DNA of 47,495 nt from a virus. The position numbers were made by a program, and so were the translations under genes. Below are positions 1-4,762 of this stretch, piece by piece. Under the pieces are notes generated by a model. That model saw only the letters and a program-made list of their open reading frames with translations, ran no database searches and was not told the DNA's origin. The stretch is taken from positions 1 through 47,495 of the IMG/VR virus record IMGVR_UViG_3300042892_002959, one strand, 5' to 3'. The stretch's first letter is position 1; each line of letters opens with the position of its first letter.

Positions 1-98
1 CACACAAAAACTAACCTGCCTTAGGTCCGTGCCGTTCCGGTTAGAGCGTCCGTAACCCAGTCGGTGACAACGTAATCGTCACGCTGTATATCGTAAGC
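1..98. other. Non-coding segment with hairpins, function unknown
   Basis: No credible reading frame is present. Several inverted repeats are visible: ctaacc (11-16) with ggttag (39-44), a CCG-ttc-CGG hairpin inside it, and a gtgac/gtcac hairpin near 64-82. The segment lies directly upstream of a long-stem RNA element and the tRNA cluster. It may be the 3' part of a structured RNA that starts outside the window. I do not recognise a known RNA family. Confidence 0.35.
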
Positions 99-100
99 AG

Positions 101-203
101 CATATTTAATTCTAGCGAAAATGCGCTATAGTGTGTAGGCAATGTTCCTTCCATTGCTGAAACTCACTCGGGGATTGCGCACCGGGCGCTAGAATTAAAT
201 ATG
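101..203 (+). ncRNA. Long-stem structured RNA element 1
   Basis: A perfect 17-bp inverted repeat, catatttaattctagcg (101-117) and cgctagaattaaatatg (187-203), closes about 70 nt. The interior has nested complementary segments (tgcgc/gcgca, agtg/cact, gcaatg/cattgc), so the RNA can fold as one extended multi-helix rod. The right arm ends on the ATG of the following small gene, so the folded RNA would hide that start codon. It is one of several such elements in the first 3.2 kb. The strand is inferred from the neighbouring genes, and the function is unknown. Confidence 0.6.
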
Positions 204-356
204 AAAAAGTTTTGGAACTTATGGGCAAAAGCCTTGGGTGAAAAAGTTGGCGACGAACATACCGCTGATCGAGTAGCTTTAATTAGAACAGCAATTGTTA
301 TGTGCTATATCATAACTAATATATTTATTATTGCTGGTGTTATAAGACACTGGTGA
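201..356 (+). CDS. Small phage membrane protein (51 aa)
   Basis: This 51-residue frame starts at an ATG inside the right arm of the upstream inverted repeat. It has an amphipathic basic N-terminus (MKKFWNLWAKALGEKVGDE) and one hydrophobic helix over about residues 31-47, ending in IRHW. From memory, short proteins of this pattern (a W-K-LGEK-like start, a helix containing ITNFFIIA-like residues, an HW end) recur in T4-like phages of aquatic bacteria, without a known role. It is followed 5 nt later by tRNA-Asn. No clear ribosome binding site is visible because the stem occupies the upstream bases. It is probably an inner-membrane protein. Confidence 0.65.
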   Translation: MKKFWNLWAKALGEKVGDEHTADRVALIRTAIVMCYIITNIFIIAGVIRHW

Positions 357-361
357 TATAT

Positions 362-436
362 TCCATGGTAGCACAGCGGTAGTGCAGTTGACTGTTAATC
401 AATTGGTCGTAGGTTCGATCCCTGCCCATGGAGCCA
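362..436 (+). tRNA. tRNA-Asn(GTT)
   Basis: A full cloverleaf is present. The acceptor stem is TCCATGG/CCATGGA, the D-arm GCAC..GTGC, and the anticodon loop CTGTTAA gives GTT. The T-loop is TTCGATC, the discriminator base is G, and the CCA is encoded. It is the first tRNA of the cluster. Confidence 0.95.
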
Positions 437-443
437 TAATTGT

Positions 444-517
444 TGGGGGTTAGTGAAATGGTATCACACGGGATTTTGATTCCCTTGTCACAAGTTCGAT
501 TCTTGTACCCTCTGCCA
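444..517 (+). tRNA. tRNA-Gln(TTG)
   Basis: The cloverleaf has acceptor strand TGGGGGT with ACCCTCT, and the weak 1-72 pair is typical of tRNA-Gln. The anticodon loop TTTTGAT gives TTG. The T-loop is TTCGATT, the discriminator base is G, and the CCA is encoded. It starts 7 nt after tRNA-Asn. Confidence 0.93.
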
Positions 518-521
518 ATCA

Positions 522-599
522 TCCGTCTTTAGCACAACTGGATAGTGTCCGGGTTTACGAAGCCTTGGGGTGGGAGTTCGAATCTCTCAGGACGGACCA
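522..599 (+). tRNA. tRNA-Arg(ACG)
   Basis: The D-arm is GCAC/GTGT, the anticodon loop TTACGAA gives ACG (probably read as ICG after A34 deamination), and the T-loop is TTCGAAT. The encoded 3' end is GGACGGACCA. The acceptor strand TCCGTCT pairs with the 3' strand but the register near the discriminator is uncertain. The anticodon stem contains weak pairs, so this is a somewhat divergent tRNA. The next inverted repeat begins 2 nt after its CCA. Confidence 0.85.
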
Positions 600-601
600 A
601 G

Positions 602-902
602 ATTATAAAGTGTAAACGTGACTGATAACGCTCTTGTAATGGGAGAAAAGGTGCTAGATATGCAGAGGTCTAGGCTTTATTAGGTTGCGTTAATCTGTAG
701 TGTATTACTGGTATAGTGGCCAAGCTGTAGGCATTATGCAAGTAAGTATTCCGAAATTATTATAGTCACATTACTAGGAATTGGGTAAACAAACCCTAAA
801 GCGTTGAAAGTTTGGTAGGCCACCAAACCTAGCTTTATCACACAATAACAGGTCGCAATCGAAAAATTCAGGGTTGACATCCTGACGTTTACACTTTATA
901 AT
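602..902 (+). ncRNA. Long-stem structured RNA element 2 (about 300 nt)
   Basis: A perfect 18-bp inverted repeat, attataaagtgtaaacgt (602-619) and acgtttacactttataat (885-902), encloses about 265 nt without a convincing reading frame. Inside are several local helices: taacgc/gcgtta, ctaga/tctag, attcc/ggaat, gggt/accc, and tttggt/accaaa flanked by aaag/cttt. The layout is that of a large multi-branched RNA. Its right arm also contains the spacer and -10 box of the promoter for the next gene. I compared it mentally with RNase P RNA, 6S RNA and tmRNA and saw none of their conserved cores. This is probably an undescribed phage RNA, or a processing structure. Confidence 0.55.
874..902 (+). promoter_or_regulatory. 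Sigma70-type promoter, consensus
   Basis: TTGACA (874-879), a 17-bp spacer and TATAAT (897-902) match the sigma70 consensus fully. The start point would fall near 909, only about 7 nt before the ATG at 916, giving a nearly leaderless mRNA. The -10 box lies in the right arm of the 18-bp inverted repeat. A second TATAAT follows at 905-910. Confidence 0.85.
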
Positions 903-915
903 TTTATAATATATC

Positions 916-1386
916 ATGTACCAACTCAATATTCAAGAAGTCAAAGACTTTATTGCAGCACAAAGTGCCGATACACGAGTTTATCTTGGTGCTGACTCGG
1001 AGCGTGTTAAGGTATCTGGGATATGGCACGCGGACTATACTCTAGCAGTTGTTGTACATATTGACGGCTGTCATGGCTGTAAGATTTTTGGTTCAATCAC
1101 ACGAGAGCGTGACTGGGATCAAAAAGCCGATAAGCCTAGCCTACGTTTAATGAACGAAGTCTATAAAGTAAGTGACTTATTTCACGAACTCTCGGATGTG
1201 TTACAAGATCGTCACGTAGAAGTACACTTAGATATTAACCCTAACTTACGATACAAGAGTTCTGCTGTTGTGCAACAAGCTGTTGGATATATTAAAGGAA
1301 CTTGCAACATTGATGCTCAAGTTAAACCAAATGCTTTTGCAGCAAGCTATGCTGCTGATCGTTTAAAATTTGTATTGGCCAACTAA
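916..1386 (+). CDS. RNase H-fold protein, YkuK/DUF458-like
   Basis: The 156-residue protein resembles the YkuK family (DUF458) of RNase H-like proteins. It begins with a strand and acidic signature YLGADSE (D27), followed by a long strand pair (TLAVVVHI), then VHLDINPN with D106, and ends with AADRL containing D148. These spaced acidic residues are where RNase H-fold enzymes bind metal. The fold suggests a nuclease or nucleic-acid-binding role, but no substrate can be inferred. It has its own consensus promoter with a very short leader. It is followed after 1 nt by a small conserved phage gene. Confidence 0.65.
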   Translation: MYQLNIQEVKDFIAAQSADTRVYLGADSERVKVSGIWHADYTLAVVVHIDGCHGCKIFGSITRERDWDQKADKPSLRLMNEVYKVSDLFHELSDVLQDRHVEVHLDINPNLRYKSSAVVQQAVGYIKGTCNIDAQVKPNAFAASYAADRLKFVLAN

Positions 1387-1387
1387 A

Positions 1388-1591
1388 ATGTCAGACCGCT
1401 TTGACCTAGAACAAAATATTATGCAATGCTGGAATGTTTGTGATGACATTCAGCTTTACTTGGATATGTATGACAACATGGACGAAGACCAGCGTATGAA
1501 CTACCTGATTGGTCTTAAACAAATGTATCAAATGAAGTTTGAGCGCTGTTTTAACAATTTTGAAACAGTGGTTCGTAATCGTCAAATTTAA
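1388..1591 (+). CDS. Conserved small phage protein (67 aa)
   Basis: The start is the ATG one base after the stop of the preceding gene; an in-frame ATG further upstream would overlap that gene. The protein (MSDRFDLEQNIMQCWNVCDD...) is acidic and helical. From memory, short proteins with the same DRFDLEQxIMxCWNV start are common in T4-like phages, usually unannotated. No catalytic motif is visible. The stop codon lies 1 nt before tRNA-Cys, so the mRNA and tRNA are probably processed from one transcript. Confidence 0.75.
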   Translation: MSDRFDLEQNIMQCWNVCDDIQLYLDMYDNMDEDQRMNYLIGLKQMYQMKFERCFNNFETVVRNRQI

Positions 1592-1592
1592 T

Positions 1593-1667
1593 GTAGGTGT
1601 GGCGGAACGGCTACGCAGCGGATTGCAAATCCGTTCTATGCAGGTTCGAGTCCTGTCACCTACTCCA
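1593..1667 (+). tRNA. tRNA-Cys(GCA)
   Basis: The acceptor stem is GTAGGTG/CACCTAC. The anticodon loop within GGATTGCAAATCC gives GCA. The T-loop is TTCGAGT, the discriminator base is T as expected for tRNA-Cys, and the CCA is encoded. Confidence 0.95.
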
Positions 1668-1735
1668 ATTTAAAATCTATGGGTACATCCATAGTCAGTT
1701 TTGTAGCGGGTGTTCTGTAATAAACACTTGCCCAT
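1668..1735 (+). other. Spacer with two short hairpins
   Basis: This 68-nt spacer between tRNA-Cys and tRNA-Thr contains ctatgg/ccatag (6 bp, loop gtacat) and a gggtgtt/aacacttgccc hairpin. No reading frame or tRNA shape is seen. It may be a processing spacer. Confidence 0.4.
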
Positions 1736-1811
1736 GCCCTTATAGCTCATTTGGTAGAGCAACCGCCTTGTAAGCGGTAGGTGGTCAGTTCGAAACCGAC
1801 TGAGGGCACCA
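1736..1811 (+). tRNA. tRNA-Thr(TGT)
   Basis: The acceptor stem is GCCCTTA/TGAGGGC, the anticodon stem-loop ACCGC-CTTGTAA-GCGGT gives TGT, and the T-loop is TTCGAAA. The discriminator base is A and the CCA is encoded. The CCA also forms the first three bases of the next inverted repeat. Confidence 0.95.
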
Positions 1812-1877
1812 TATATAAGTACACGTCCTAAATGAAAGAAACCTCTGAGGGCTTTAGTGGGGTGTACTTATATATGG
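1809..1877 (+). ncRNA. Long-stem RNA element 3 between tRNA-Thr and tmRNA
   Basis: A perfect 16-bp inverted repeat, ccatatataagtacac (1809-1824) and gtgtacttatatatgg (1862-1877), closes a 37-nt interior. The interior has nested pairs ctaaa/tttag and cctc/gagg. The left arm includes the CCA end of tRNA-Thr, and the right arm abuts the presumed 5' end of the tmRNA acceptor piece. It is probably an RNA processing structure, for example an RNase III site. Its arms resemble those of the element at 3096-3199. Confidence 0.6.
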
Positions 1878-1937
1878 TTGTATGAAGCAAATAGAAAAAT
1901 GTTCTGGACGCGGGTTCGACTCCCGCCAGGTCCACCA
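1878..1937 (+). ncRNA. ssrA: tmRNA acceptor piece
   Basis: This segment contains the T-arm GCGGG-TTCGACT-CCCGC, the acceptor 3' strand CAGGTCC, discriminator A and an encoded CCA (1935-1937). Upstream, ttgtat (1878-1883) can pair with gtacaa in the coding piece, as expected for helix P2. The 5' boundary is inferred from this pairing. Confidence 0.85.
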
Positions 1938-2035
1938 GGAAGTGTATTGTGTGTTTAGGAGTGGGGGATACGAACCACGTTAAATAAATAAGTCTACAAA
2001 AGCCTAGACACAAGCGCAACAGTACACTTCCTAAT
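1938..2035 (+). other. Internal spacer of permuted tmRNA
   Basis: This spacer joins the CCA of the acceptor piece to the 5' end of the coding piece and should be removed during maturation. It is closed by aggaagtgta (1937-1946) with tacacttcct (2023-2032), which stacks next to the acceptor stem. Inside are gtcta/tagac and gtgg/ccac hairpins. Confidence 0.75.
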
Positions 2036-2221
2036 GGGCCTGCCATGGTTTCGACAGGGTAATGAGTACAAGAGTGGACAACTCGGCAAGGTAGAAGCCG
2101 TAGGGTTGGGGATTCCTGGCCGCAGACACAAAACAAAAATAACTGCAAACGATAATACGTACGCATTAGCAGCCTAAACGCCGCTTAGGGTTTCGCCAGT
2201 TCCTCGTAACAGAATACTGGC
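2036..2221 (+). ncRNA. ssrA: tmRNA coding piece
   Basis: It starts with the acceptor 5' strand GGGCCTG and a D-region containing TTTCGACAGG. The resume codon GCA is at 2145. The tag stop codon lies in a CCTAA/TTAGG hairpin (2173-2189), as in other tmRNAs, and a ccagt/actgg helix follows (2196-2220). The 3' end is not certain: it may run into the following inverted repeat. Confidence 0.8.
2145..2177 (+). other. tmRNA proteolysis tag ORF, ANDNTYALAA
   Basis: The frame gca-aac-gat-aat-acg-tac-gca-tta-gca-gcc-taa encodes ANDNTYALAA. The C-terminal LAA is the signal read by ClpXP in bacteria. The tag is close in form to betaproteobacterial tags (AND....ALAA). Confidence 0.92.
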
Positions 2222-2335
2222 ACTATAGTTTAGCACATTACTTGCCACTTAATAAATAAATGCGGAGTCGCCTGCAGCAATACCTTCCGCGGGTAACTGG
2301 GAGCACCCAGCATGGGTAGTATGCTAAACTATAGT
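2222..2335 (+). ncRNA. Long-stem RNA element 5 between tmRNA and clpP
   Basis: A perfect 14-bp inverted repeat, actatagtttagca (2222-2235) and tgctaaactatagt (2322-2335), encloses 86 nt. The interior has gcgga/tccgc and a ctggg/cccag hairpin. It directly follows the tmRNA coding piece and ends 1 nt before the ribosome binding site of the ClpP gene (aaagga). It may define the 3' end of the tmRNA by processing, or belong to the tmRNA itself. No promoter was found here, so the ClpP gene probably shares the tmRNA transcript. Confidence 0.55.
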
Positions 2336-2345
2336 AAAGGAACTT

Positions 2346-2939
2346 ATGAAGTCTAATATTCTCGACCCTAAATTGTTTGAATCCAACAAATTTTCAAACA
2401 ACTTTACCAAACCAGTGGCACACATTCATGAGTTTTATCTAACTGGTGAAATTGGTGATGCTGAAGAATACATTGAATGGTTTGATATAATTCGCAATGC
2501 AGGTTCCACAGACACAATTCGCATCTATATCAACAGCCCTGGTGGTGACCTATTTACCACCCTACAGTTCTTGCGTGTTATGTCGGACACAGATGCCACA
2601 GTTGTGTGCAGTGTAGAAGGCGCTTGCATGAGTGCAGCCACCATGATCTTCTTACACGGTCATAGTCAAGAAGTTACACCGCATAGCCTATTTATGTTTC
2701 ACAACTATAGTGCTGGAACATTTGGCAAAGGCGGCGAAATGTACGATCAGCTACAGTTTGAGCGTACTTGGTCAGAAAATTTCATGACTGAGGTTTATAG
2801 TGGCTTTTTGACCACAGAAGAAATCTCCAGCATGATGCACAACAAAGACATTTGGATGGGCTCGGATGAAGTGGTCAAGCGATTGCAAGCCATGCAAGCG
2901 GCTCGCGAAGCTGAAGTCTCAGAAACCGGTGAAGAATAA
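2346..2939 (+). CDS. clpP: ClpP-type serine protease
   Basis: This 197-residue protein has the ClpP fold signatures: the strand motif IRIYINSPGGD (residues 58-68), the nucleophile motif GACMSAATM with Ser96, and FMFHNYS with catalytic His119. A later Asp (D168 in NKDIWMG, or D174) probably completes the triad. The length matches bacterial ClpP (about 195-205 aa). ClpP forms a barrel that degrades substrates delivered by ClpX or ClpA. No ATPase partner gene is visible in the window, so the host unfoldase would be needed, or the enzyme acts on phage proteins such as the prohead. It lies 10 nt after an RNA hairpin that follows the tmRNA. A good ribosome binding site (aaagga) precedes the ATG. 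Confidence 0.92.
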   Translation: MKSNILDPKLFESNKFSNNFTKPVAHIHEFYLTGEIGDAEEYIEWFDIIRNAGSTDTIRIYINSPGGDLFTTLQFLRVMSDTDATVVCSVEGACMSAATMIFLHGHSQEVTPHSLFMFHNYSAGTFGKGGEMYDQLQFERTWSENFMTEVYSGFLTTEEISSMMHNKDIWMGSDEVVKRLQAMQAAREAEVSETGEE

Positions 2940-3007
2940 ATCTCAGCGCAGTAAGTGTTATGCGCATACACAAAACGAAACACTAGGCACATGAGATGTG
3001 TGTCCTT
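2940..3007 (+). other. Spacer with weak inverted repeat
   Basis: Between clpP and tRNA-Ser, atctca (near 2940) and tgagat (near 2993) form a 6-bp outer pair around gtgt/acac helices. This is similar in layout to the long-stem elements but much weaker. No reading frame is present. Confidence 0.3.
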
Positions 3008-3099
3008 GGAAAGTAATGCAGCGGGGTTGGTCCTGCGACTGGCCTTGAAAACCAGGTTCTGTTAACACGGATGGGGTTCGACTCCTCTGCTTTCCGCCA
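3008..3099 (+). tRNA. tRNA-Ser(TGA)
   Basis: This is a class II tRNA with a long variable arm. The acceptor stem is GGAAAGT/GCTTTCC, the anticodon loop CTTGAAA gives TGA, and the T-loop is TTCGACT. The discriminator base is G and the CCA is encoded. The last anticodon stem pair (C31-A39) is mismatched. Its CCA is part of the next inverted repeat. Confidence 0.92.
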
Positions 3100-3199
3100 T
3101 ATATAACCACATCAGCCTTGACTCCACGGTAGTGCCTAGTTTACTAGTGGCGAACGGGTCTAGTAAGAAGCCCTGGCACTTGGTGTGGTTATATATGGC
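3096..3199 (+). ncRNA. Long-stem RNA element 6 after tRNA-Ser
   Basis: A perfect 15-bp inverted repeat, gccatatataaccac (3096-3110) and gtggttatatatggc (3185-3199), closes 74 nt. Nested helices gtgcc/ggcac and ttactag/ctagtaa lie inside. The left arm contains the CCA of tRNA-Ser and the right arm contains the ATG (3195) of the next gene. The arms share the ccatatata/tatatatgg core with element 3 after tRNA-Thr, which suggests a related family. Confidence 0.6.
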
Positions 3200-3509
3200 C
3201 CTGAACTTTAAAAATCTCAAATCACCCTTGCTAGGCATGACTGACAATATACTGATCGGCAAACTAGCTGGATGCCGCGTATGCGACGTTATTCCCGATC
3301 ACTACGAATATTTGATTTGGGCAGATAAACAAGGTTTGTTAAAATTTCAAGCAATTGTTGTTGAAACTATTGCAGAACACGCTGGATATAAGTCGCAGCA
3401 GCAATATTACACAGAAGAAGTAGAGCCTTTTATTACTAAAGAGCCTAAGTTACGAGAAACCAACGAACCTCCTTATTTAGACGACTACTTTGATGATATA
3501 CCATTTTAA
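3195..3509 (+). CDS. Small protein with DUF3820/ExoX C-terminal-like motif
   Basis: The protein is about 104 aa. Residues near 18-50 read as ILIGKLAGCRVCDVIPDHYE and continue into YLIWADKQG. This fits the short 'GKxxGxxxxxxPxxYLxW' pattern of DUF3820 and of ExoX C-terminal regions. The C-terminus is acidic. The start is uncertain: ATG 3195 lies in the stem of element 6 without a clear ribosome binding site, and ATG 3237 is an alternative. It stops 1 nt before tRNA-Gly(GCC). The function is unknown; the motif is linked to nucleic-acid enzymes, but that is inference. Confidence 0.6.
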   Translation: MALNFKNLKSPLLGMTDNILIGKLAGCRVCDVIPDHYEYLIWADKQGLLKFQAIVVETIAEHAGYKSQQQYYTEEVEPFITKEPKLRETNEPPYLDDYFDDIPF

Positions 3510-3510
3510 T

Positions 3511-3586
3511 GCGTGCTTAGCTCAGTTGGTAGAGCACTTCGTTGCCAACGAAGATGTCGCAGGTTCGAACCCTGTAGCCCGCACCA
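3511..3586 (+). tRNA. tRNA-Gly(GCC)
   Basis: The anticodon arm CTTCG-TTGCCAA-CGAAG gives GCC, the T-loop is TTCGAAC, the discriminator base is A and the CCA is encoded. The acceptor strands GCGTGCT and AGCCCGC leave a T4-C69 mismatch, also present in the second tRNA-Gly. Confidence 0.93.
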
Positions 3587-3616
3587 CTTTTTAACCGGCG
3601 CCAAAGTAGCAAAATT

Positions 3617-3823
3617 ATGTACCGAGTATACTACACAGACCCTGAAACAGGACAAGCGTTAGGCGTTGATGTACCAACACTAACAGCTGCACTAGATCGC
3701 TGTGAACAGCTGCGCGAATACCACTACGAGTATGTAACCATGGTCAGTGATTATCACAACATGGTAGGTAAACCTGGTGCCTGTGGAGCCGGTACGGAAT
3801 ACGTTCCACAACTAAAAAATTAA
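3617..3823 (+). CDS. Conserved small phage protein (68 aa)
   Basis: The protein begins MYRVYYTDPETGQALGVDV and contains a helical middle followed by VGKPGACGAGTEYVP. From memory, short phage proteins with a YTDPxTGxxxGVD start and a later VGKPG motif are frequent in T4-like phages of aquatic bacteria. No function is known. It lies between two tRNA-Gly genes, with only 30 nt upstream and 3 nt downstream, so it is probably co-transcribed with them. Confidence 0.75.
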   Translation: MYRVYYTDPETGQALGVDVPTLTAALDRCEQLREYHYEYVTMVSDYHNMVGKPGACGAGTEYVPQLKN

Positions 3824-3826
3824 ACC

Positions 3827-3900
3827 GCGTGCTTAGTTTAATGGTAAAATTCTTTCCTTCCAAGTAAGAGTCAAGGGTTCGATTCCCTTAGCCCGCACCA
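3827..3900 (+). tRNA. tRNA-Gly(TCC)
   Basis: The anticodon loop CTTCCAA gives TCC, the T-loop is TTCGATT, the discriminator base is A and the CCA is encoded. The acceptor strands GCGTGCT/AGCCCGC carry the same T4-C69 mismatch as tRNA-Gly(GCC). Confidence 0.93.
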
Positions 3901-3901
3901 T

Positions 3902-3976
3902 GCATCGTTAACTCAGCGGTAGAGTGCCTCCTTTACACGGAGTAGGTCGGCGGTTCGATCCCGTCACGATGTACCA
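3902..3976 (+). tRNA. tRNA-Val(TAC)
   Basis: The acceptor stem is GCATCGT/ACGATGT (G1-T72 wobble), the anticodon loop TTTACAC gives TAC, and the T-loop is TTCGATC. The discriminator base is A and the CCA is encoded. It starts 1 nt after the preceding tRNA. Confidence 0.93.
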
Positions 3977-3993
3977 ACACAAAAAATTTTCAC

Positions 3994-4022
3994 TTGCAAA
4001 ATTACCCTAAACCTGGTACAAT
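3994..4022 (+). promoter_or_regulatory. Sigma70-type promoter overlapping a hairpin
   Basis: TTGCAA (3994-3999), a 17-bp spacer and TACAAT (4017-4022) make a good promoter. The spacer contains the left arm taccctaaa of an inverted repeat whose right arm lies downstream of the -10 box. Confidence 0.7.
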
Positions 4023-4045
4023 AGTGCTGGATTTAGGGTATTTTT
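4003..4045 (+). terminator. Hairpin with T-tract after the tRNA cluster
   Basis: taccctaaa (4003-4011) pairs with tttagggta (4033-4041), and attttt follows. It could end the tRNA operon, but the 21-nt loop is long and the loop contains a -10 box. It may instead be an operator for the promoter at 3994-4022. Confidence 0.5.
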
Positions 4046-4186
4046 GTTTGCACAATTACGTGCCCAACATACTAGGCTTGGTATATTAATATGCTTTATA
4101 CCATTTAGAAATTTTAACGGTTTTGACGTATGTTCAAGCACCGTTTTATAGGAAATAATTATGCAAAATAACGCAAGGAATATGCT
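4046..4186 (+). promoter_or_regulatory. Leader region with two inverted repeats
   Basis: ggtata (4080-4085) pairs with tataccc-type tatacc (4097-4102). aacggt (4116-4121) pairs with accgtt (4140-4145) and is followed by ttat. The ribosome binding site aagga precedes the ATG at 4187. The region may hold a leader hairpin or attenuator. No reading frame of note is present. Confidence 0.35.
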
Positions 4187-4762
4187 ATGGCAGTAACTAT
4201 TGGCTCATCAGGAATTACGTTTAATGATAGCAGTATTCAAACAACAAAACCAATGAAGCTTCTAGGCGAAGTTAGCAACACTGCCACCGGAAATGGCAGC
4301 CATTCTTTCTATGGTTTAAGCGCTTATAATCAACTAGTACTAGTCTGGAACGGTACTCAATACAGCGGGCCTGCGGGTAGTAGTTTAACACTCACAGAAG
4401 GTACTACTAGTGTTTTATTCACTACCTCTGCGACTAATGAGTTACTATTAACAACTCAAAGTTTGAACACTGTCACCCGAGTGCAACAGGCTAGCAACAG
4501 TTCAAATCTTTTAACTAGCTTTAGCGGCGGCAATAGCTTCTGGAAAGGTAGGGTAGTTATGACAAAAATAAGAAATATGTCAGCCACTTTACCACAAATG
4601 TGGAATGTGAGCATTGAAGGTGGTACTAGTACTAATTACTTTGCCGCTAATCTAGCCGTAGGCACCCCCACTCTTAGTGCTTCAGGTTTCAGTCTGGACA
4701 GTATTAACTTAAATCTTGGACTAACGAATCTAATTAATATTAGACTATATGGAACACAATAA
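4187..4762 (+). CDS. Tail fibre-like or surface virion protein
   Basis: This 191-residue protein is rich in Ser, Thr, Gly and Asn and is predicted to be mostly beta strand. Its start, MAVTIGSSGITFNDSSIQTT, is typical of phage fibre or receptor-binding proteins ('ltFndgs.qtT'). The remainder resembles a beta-sandwich head or tip domain, but I do not recognise the family. The following gene encodes a small tail-assembly chaperone-like protein, which supports a fibre or tip role. A ribosome binding site (aagga) sits about 9 nt upstream. The leader has two hairpins. Confidence 0.6.
   Translation: MAVTIGSSGITFNDSSIQTTKPMKLLGEVSNTATGNGSHSFYGLSAYNQLVLVWNGTQYSGPAGSSLTLTEGTTSVLFTTSATNELLLTTQSLNTVTRVQQASNSSNLLTSFSGGNSFWKGRVVMTKIRNMSATLPQMWNVSIEGGTSTNYFAANLAVGTPTLSASGFSLDSINLNLGLTNLINIRLYGTQ

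Follow-up and report, generated by a model that had tools for sequence, protein, structure and literature searches.

Here we describe a viral locus in which a permuted tmRNA lies directly upstream of a gene for a ClpP-family protease, an order conserved in one clade of uncultured, T5-like aquatic phages, and in which the spacers before, inside and after the tmRNA hold stem-closed RNA cassettes that are exchanged between phages. We read the locus as part of a T5-like tRNA-array operon with two layers, a phage tmRNA and ClpP that would serve tagging and degradation and a set of releasable RNA cassettes, and we put the probability of this reading at roughly 55%. Phage tmRNAs have so far been without a clear purpose, and a clade that carries the tmRNA and a protease gene, probably on one transcript, offers a direct test of phage-driven tagging and degradation. 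Among the cassettes is an RNA family that had not been filed before, is supported by covariation and is predicted to self-assemble; its genomic place is like that of GOLLD and ROOL, but its members are much smaller. The cassettes suggest that the segment cut from a permuted tmRNA is a site of small-RNA production and not waste. The window, that is, the whole stretch of DNA that was analysed, is the entire IMG/VR record IMGVR_UViG_3300042892_002959 (47,495 bases), which is marked linear and so, as such records often are, may be a fragment. On gene content, a split NAD-dependent DNA ligase, a D5-like regulator, a DnaB-like helicase, a primase, a DNA polymerase and SbcCD make its phage T5-like. 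The tRNA array occupies positions 1-4200, and the parts of the tmRNA-clpP locus placed below lie on the + strand.

The preliminary description of this DNA had placed the 3′ half of a tmRNA ahead of its 5′ half, and the covariance search that it proposed bears this out: RF04321 (tmRNA_permuted) matches 1876-2177 with 119.5 bits (E 7e-23, cut-off 47), RF01850 (beta_tmRNA) also lies above gathering at 106.4 bits, and ARAGORN calls a permuted tmRNA at 1845-2268. The acceptor piece (1876-1937; RF04321, ARAGORN) comprises the tRNA-like 3′ half, with the T-arm and the 3′ strand of the acceptor stem, and ends in an encoded CCA (1935-1937). It is followed by an intervening segment of the pre-tmRNA (1938-2035), closed by a stem of ~13 bp that extends the acceptor stem, and then by the coding piece (2036-2221, with an approximate 3′ end; ARAGORN, RF04321), which holds the tRNA-like 5′ half, the tag reading frame and the downstream domain. 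The two pieces rebuild the 7-bp acceptor stem originally proposed, GGGCCUG (2036-2042) pairing with CAGGUCC (1927-1933) at 7 of 7 positions, including G3-U70, the alanine identity pair of tmRNA. The tag frame at 2145-2177, GCA AAC GAT AAT ACG TAC GCA TTA GCA GCC TAA, reads ANDNTYALAA-stop; this is the tag that had been read by the first description and that ARAGORN returns from its coding part, in frame and with a ClpXP-type degron at its end. Most tags of relatives begin ANx and end ALAA, and a few end ALVA or RIAA.

Across the fetched phage loci 33 distinct permuted tmRNAs were recognised, and in each the acceptor is fully paired (7/7) and contains G3-U70. Because the search itself demanded a 5′ GG and at least 6 of 7 pairs, the informative part is the variety of the pairings: six different ones occur among the 33, and acceptor-stem pairing is in excess of chance. 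The intervening segments of the pre-tmRNAs have UGAU or UAAU at the end and a closing stem with a median of 12 bp. As a separate observation, five intervening segments (L005, L035, L083, L123 and L130) hold an apparent small ORF with a start codon (~34-56 codons) and not a structured RNA.

The gene downstream, clpP (2346-2939), encodes a ClpP-family serine peptidase that matches PF00574 with 44.3 bits against a cut-off of 20.2. Ser96 and His119, the residues by which the gene had first been recognised as a ClpP, are invariant in an alignment of 39 relatives, and so is Asp168, which supplies the plausible catalytic Asp on which the protease claim had hinged. The AlphaFold2 model (mean pLDDT 84.9, with residues 1-20 of low confidence) has a ClpP fold, its best solved counterparts in Foldseek being ClpPs (E 1.5e-10). 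A quite improbable alternative is that the protein is a head-maturation protease, for which the tmRNA neighbourhood would be irrelevant; the ClpP of freshwater phage P26059A has been read in this way (PMC5964084), and several PHROG head-maturation protease families match the window protein. The best of these reaches E 3.3e-31, however, against 1.5e-62 for the best PHROG match overall, phrog_1827 (ATP-dependent protease), clpP sits in a tRNA array, and a scan of 30 window proteins assigned no head or packaging family except motif-level ATPase matches. As the protease partner of the tmRNA, which is the reading that we prefer, the protein carries an uncertainty: local alignment with a bacterial-type ClpP does not begin until about residue 58 and has 29% identity, and the N-terminal axial-loop region of bacterial ClpP fails to align, which leaves docking on host ClpX uncertain.

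The start codon of clpP lies 10 nt after the end of a hairpin at 2222-2335, with the ribosome-binding site just 3′ of that hairpin, so the gene does follow the tmRNA directly, as had been reported. A sigma-70-type promoter, TTGACA-17-TATAAT, is predicted at 874-902 from a 12/12 consensus match and is the sole perfect match in positions 1-4200; between tmRNA and clpP (2036-2346) there is no comparable promoter-like site on the + strand, in line with the earlier reading. From these two observations, one transcript that would start at the predicted promoter and run through an RNase H-like gene, the tRNAs, the tmRNA and clpP is likely. When the co-occurrence of ssrA and clpP was searched for, as had been suggested, the order tmRNA-hairpin-clpP was found again in ~24 distinct contigs of the T5-like aquatic clade besides the window. 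The sample for this count was 80 ClpP loci from viral contigs, in which an ARAGORN permuted tmRNA ends at most 90 nt before clpP in 20 distinct loci, and converted RF04321 coordinates add four further adjacent ones (L011, L012, L018, L031); RF04321 scores above its cut-off on 34 of 50 ClpP-bearing contigs. Order and spacing persist down to ~62-64% ClpP identity while the neighbouring tRNAs and the hairpin cores turn over. Adjacency within 200 nt is confined to one clade, and in more distant relatives the two genes stand 0.5-2.4 kb apart with one to several ORFs between them. We conclude that in that one clade the neighbourhood is real and selected.

It is a serious, if somewhat improbable, alternative that tmRNA and ClpP are independent accessory genes in a permissive, early-expressed tRNA-array island, their adjacency being inherited and not functional. 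The restriction of close spacing to a single clade, with intervening ORFs elsewhere, fits such independence, as do relatives that have ClpP without tmRNA or tmRNA without ClpP; in the isolated, T5-like Erwinia phage KEY the neighbours of clpP are a dNMP kinase and lysis genes, and a tmRNA is absent, and in three regions checked of isolate phages with tmRNA-like matches no ClpP lies within 4 kb. Independence does not, on the other hand, account well for order and spacing that outlast the turnover of everything around them, nor for the G062/G063 lineage, whose permuted tmRNA is preceded at ~1.3 kb by an unrelated ClpP of bacterial type. tmRNA and ClpP are not obligate partners, since clpP follows tRNA genes on contigs without tmRNA in six distinct relatives (L025, L033, L034, L036, L039, L043) and ClpP occurs on only 5 of 47 contigs that carry the RNA module described below, absences that are weak because contigs are fragments. 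As a sister lineage keeps ClpP without the tmRNA, a shared function of the two is plausible only. The preliminary description had seen tagging RNA and protease as a unit. The permuted tmRNA, the intact triad, the clade-wide adjacency and the lack of an internal promoter support that part of it; that the two form a single proteolysis pathway is not supported, given the six relatives without tmRNA, the unaligned axial loop and the absence of SmpB and of any ClpX/ClpA-type ATPase from all 50 ClpP-bearing contigs (PF01668, PF07724; controls positive). A working pathway would thus need host factors, and we conclude that any tagging and degradation would use host SmpB and ClpX.

Phage two-piece tmRNAs and phage ClpPs are each already known. 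Among 133 phage tmRNA structures 53 were two-piece, most of them from aquatic samples (PMC9004378), and a permuted tmRNA model has been described (PMC11915505). The two-piece tmRNA of Methylophilales phage Melnitz, for which recycling of host proteins and amino acids, an idea that the preliminary description also raised, was proposed earlier with ClpP unmentioned (PMC9004378), is of the same type as that in the window (RF04321/RF01850), being phage-borne with the same gene order, tRNA-like domain and ALAA-type tag. The Melnitz tmRNA adjoins a transcription coactivator, whereas the window tmRNA adjoins clpP, and Melnitz has a glutamine riboswitch where the window has exchangeable structured RNA cassettes in the intervening segment and on both flanks. 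Phage ClpPs of the same family (PHROG 1827) occur in Erwinia phage KEY, Pectobacterium phage DU_PP_V, ICP1 and Xanthomonas phage XacN1 at ~32-37% identity; in KEY and XacN1 different genes flank clpP and none of them is a tmRNA, in contrast to the clade of the window, where it comes directly after one. In a literature whose coverage left out most subscription journals, we found no described permuted tmRNA/ClpP pair (the preliminary description had likewise known of none), no paper on structured RNA cassettes in permuted tmRNAs, and no report of the RNA described next.

The hairpin at 2222-2335 had been treated as mere punctuation before clpP, a view that has to be given up: it is a conserved structured RNA, here called module A, with covarying stems and a core pattern that matches 70 viral stretches. 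It consists of a covarying basal stem of ~20 bp (P1), an invariant core and a palindromic apical loop, CUGCAG in the window (inverted repeat, alignment, covariation; folding z-score −3.0), and measures ~60-75 nt plus the basal stem. The core reads CCACUUAA..AUA.AUG.GGAG / C.UUCC.CGGGU.A, with 29 invariant alignment columns. No match among 4227 Rfam models overlaps it in the window, whether at gathering or at E up to 1, and we consider module A, on these comparisons, to be an RNA family absent from Rfam; known self-cleaving ribozymes were also considered, and the Rfam search gave no match to one. A scan of 84,980 bacterial and archaeal genomes for the pattern gave 2 matches against ~7 expected by chance from the size of the collection, both in Paenibacillus, where the sequence looks protein-coding and has neither P2 nor P1; both were rejected as chance. 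With module A of two other lineages as queries, blastn against 50,697 isolate phages found no module A: the first query hit tmRNA coding sequence alone, and the second had no matches; for a separate query that contained the window copy, all of the matches listed lie in tmRNA.

Covariation supports the helices of module A. In P1, 338 cells carry double changes against 84 in shuffled controls and 99% of cells are paired, a percentage that is inflated by the choice of arms for complementarity; this choice does not inflate the count of different sequences. At each P1 position almost every type of standard pair occurs, with G-U in 46 of 660 cells. P2 is paired in every module A sequence, its variable position being CG, UA or AU; a thermodynamic fold of the window copy by itself fails to give this helix. 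An automatic covariance model has only 10 pairs, since MAFFT leaves P1 unaligned (P1 was counted by script), and recovered every expected copy in the searched loci together with a divergent one in L029. Module A keeps company with tRNA and tmRNA genes: a permuted tmRNA is present on 36 of the 47 contigs, NCCA lies 14-22 nt ahead of the core in 36 of 57 copies, and every copy that has an adjacent tRNA or tmRNA shares its orientation.

The apical loop contains a palindrome of at least 6 nt in 52 of 57 module A sequences, compared with 21% of shuffled loops, and the palindromes differ: UCUAGA, CGUACG, UCCGGA, CGCGCG, CUGCAG, ACCGGU, CUCGAG, CCUAGG and others. Taken together, the pairs of P2 and of the loop palindrome have a covariation of 0.504 on an independent MAFFT alignment, against 0.145 (sd 0.019) for shuffled alignments (0/500) and at most 0.086 for slid controls; the palindrome itself, columns 45-50 of alignment A2, is 94.7% paired, and all three of its pairs have changed on both sides. 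This pattern shows selection for self-complementarity, and because adjacent bases cannot pair inside one molecule it points to intermolecular pairing. We predict that module A self-associates through the palindromic loop, probably as a kissing dimer. Most members outside the clade of the window have another palindromic loop, on the second hairpin (35 of 55 overall, palindrome at least 4), and could form longer assemblies.

Retroviruses offer a precedent in the dimer initiation site, a dimerisation hairpin with a palindromic loop. The retroviral site shares with module A a six-nucleotide self-complementary apical loop but differs in its unrelated sequence and context, and module A has in addition a junction that is conserved and, in many members, another palindromic loop. 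RNA dimerisation has been reviewed (PMC7357161). Large phage non-coding RNAs, GOLLD and ROOL, also lie near tRNA islands and have kissing loops and covarying intermolecular contacts (PMC12286853). Their likeness to module A is that of phage RNAs beside tRNA islands, and their contacts, kissing loops among them, likewise leave covariation. They are hundreds of nucleotides long and form cages, however, whereas module A is set apart by its small size, its self-complementary loops, its placement at CCA ends or inside tmRNA and its lack of an Rfam family.

An unlikely reading of such hairpins is that they are only RNase III sites or protective trailers, in which the stems matter and the cores drift. 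Stems of 17-26 bp would suit RNase III, and the hairpins stand right after CCA ends and just before the clpP ribosome-binding site; yet it is the cores that are conserved, far more than the stems (29 invariant columns in module A against nearly all pair types in P1), they remain recognisable after moving to other sites, and the loop palindromes covary. In the reading that we prefer, that of RNA cassettes, module A is one of a wider set of elements. The loci contain 215 long inverted repeats with cores of 25-130 nt, against 49 in a first-order Markov simulation, and clustering gives about 16 recurring array cores, many of which are found at different sites in different phages. Exchange involves three kinds of site: behind the CCA of a tRNA, in the gap from tmRNA to clpP, and within the permuted tmRNA, in its intervening segment. 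Module A itself is found at each of them: it follows several different tRNAs, it separates tmRNA from clpP, and ARAGORN puts 11 of its copies within permuted tmRNAs. Core B in the window forms a cassette with a 17-20 bp stem (1808-1878; inverted repeat) that reaches from the CCA of tRNA-Thr (UGU; 1736-1811; ARAGORN, inverted repeat I6) to the acceptor piece of the tmRNA, the 3′ ACCA of that tRNA (1808-1811) being the base of the hairpin; in L014, L024 and L044 the same core lies inside the tmRNA intervening segment (core B was followed in the fetched loci only). Core E (3096-3199; inverted repeat, clustering) starts from the 3′ GCCA of a tRNA-Ser-like gene in the window and in L010 precedes clpP, between it and the tmRNA. 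In other phages the occupant of the intervening segment is module A, core B, core D or core c10, the last of which is found between tRNAs or inside tmRNA. Cores c10, c4 and c3E, each with few sequences, have six-base palindromes that differ between members. The basal stems are specific to their sites, include the tRNA CCA and do not travel with the core.

Exchange of cores might also mean that the inverted repeats are DNA elements, such as integron attC-like recombination sites or miniature mobile elements, and that their movement is DNA mobility. Cores do occur at several sites beside the 3′ ends of tRNAs and tmRNAs, which are classical integration sites, and dimeric DNA-binding proteins also recognise palindromes. 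We regard this as quite improbable: module A lies on the same strand as the neighbouring tRNA or tmRNA in every copy that has one, its stems contain G-U pairs (those counted in P1), and basal stems that take in the tRNA CCA stay behind when the core moves. Core conservation, G-U pairs and orientation fit RNA cassettes better than they fit either this view or that of RNase III hairpins.

In the two-layer reading, host AlaRS would charge the phage tmRNA through G3-U70 and host SmpB would load it, so that stalled nascent chains are tagged with ANDNTYALAA; host ClpX would then feed the tagged chains to host ClpP, to the phage ClpP from the same transcript, or to both, so that ribosomes would stay available and proteolysis would continue as the host's mRNA and protein synthesis break down. 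In the second layer, the three spacers of the tmRNA, upstream (1808-1878), internal (1938-2035) and downstream (2222-2335), are stem-closed cassettes that would be freed as small stem-protected RNAs alongside mature tRNAs and the two-piece tmRNA by host tRNA-processing enzymes, whose cuts would fall behind CCA and in many cases ahead of the RNA that follows. Most cassettes border a tRNA-processing cut that is known or expected, which points to their liberation as small stable RNAs, and since they are also exchanged between phages they should be released as such; module A, once free, would dimerise by loop kissing. Tentatively, and at a little short of even odds, we propose that module A, together with the other cassettes, makes up a new class of small phage RNAs, expressed from tRNA arrays by being parked at tRNA-processing cuts including the excised segment of permuted tmRNAs, self-assembling by their palindromic loops and acting as exchangeable effectors, for example as decoys or inhibitors of host nucleases or of defence RNAs or proteins, or as scaffolds on the ribosome or tmRNA.

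Several further features were observed around these loci. In seven loci of distant relatives (L051, L057, L064, L035, L040, L038, L045) a secreted protein, by eye similar to a cell-wall hydrolase, is encoded between tmRNA and clpP. L158 (1416-2036 and 3308-3764; also L159) has a bacterial-type ClpP ~1.3 kb upstream of a permuted tmRNA that encloses module A, and the ARAGORN tag of this tmRNA is unusually long and may be misread. In the window, a 21-bp inverted repeat around ~265 nt (599-905) lies between a tRNA-Arg and the RNase H-like gene and is possibly a larger structured RNA; its 3′ arm contains the −10 box of the predicted promoter. The tRNA-Ser-like gene ahead of core E (3008-3095) has the anticodon UGA by eye; ARAGORN missed it, and its only model match is a sub-threshold tRNA-Sec. 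Core E (3096-3199) contains a segment, GTGGCGAACGGGT..AGTAA, that we take to resemble helix 6 of betaproteobacterial 16S rRNA, so that rRNA mimicry is possible.

Some cassette cores carry apparent T-arm-like motifs. A tRNA-like core in L004 (5439-5536) and L018 (6755-6852) has a clear T-arm (GGGGTTCGAGTCCC), sits within a 19-bp stem and is without a CCA end of its own. Two 188-nt intervening segments (L106, L147) hold two tandem cassettes inside one permuted tmRNA, separated by an apparent shortened copy of the acceptor arm that ends in an ACCA of its own, an arrangement that may record how a cassette was gained through duplication. Near the start of the window, a stem-closed cassette at 101-203 (cluster 0), not in Rfam, has covarying internal hairpins and is present in 15 distinct loci, usually after tRNA-Asp.
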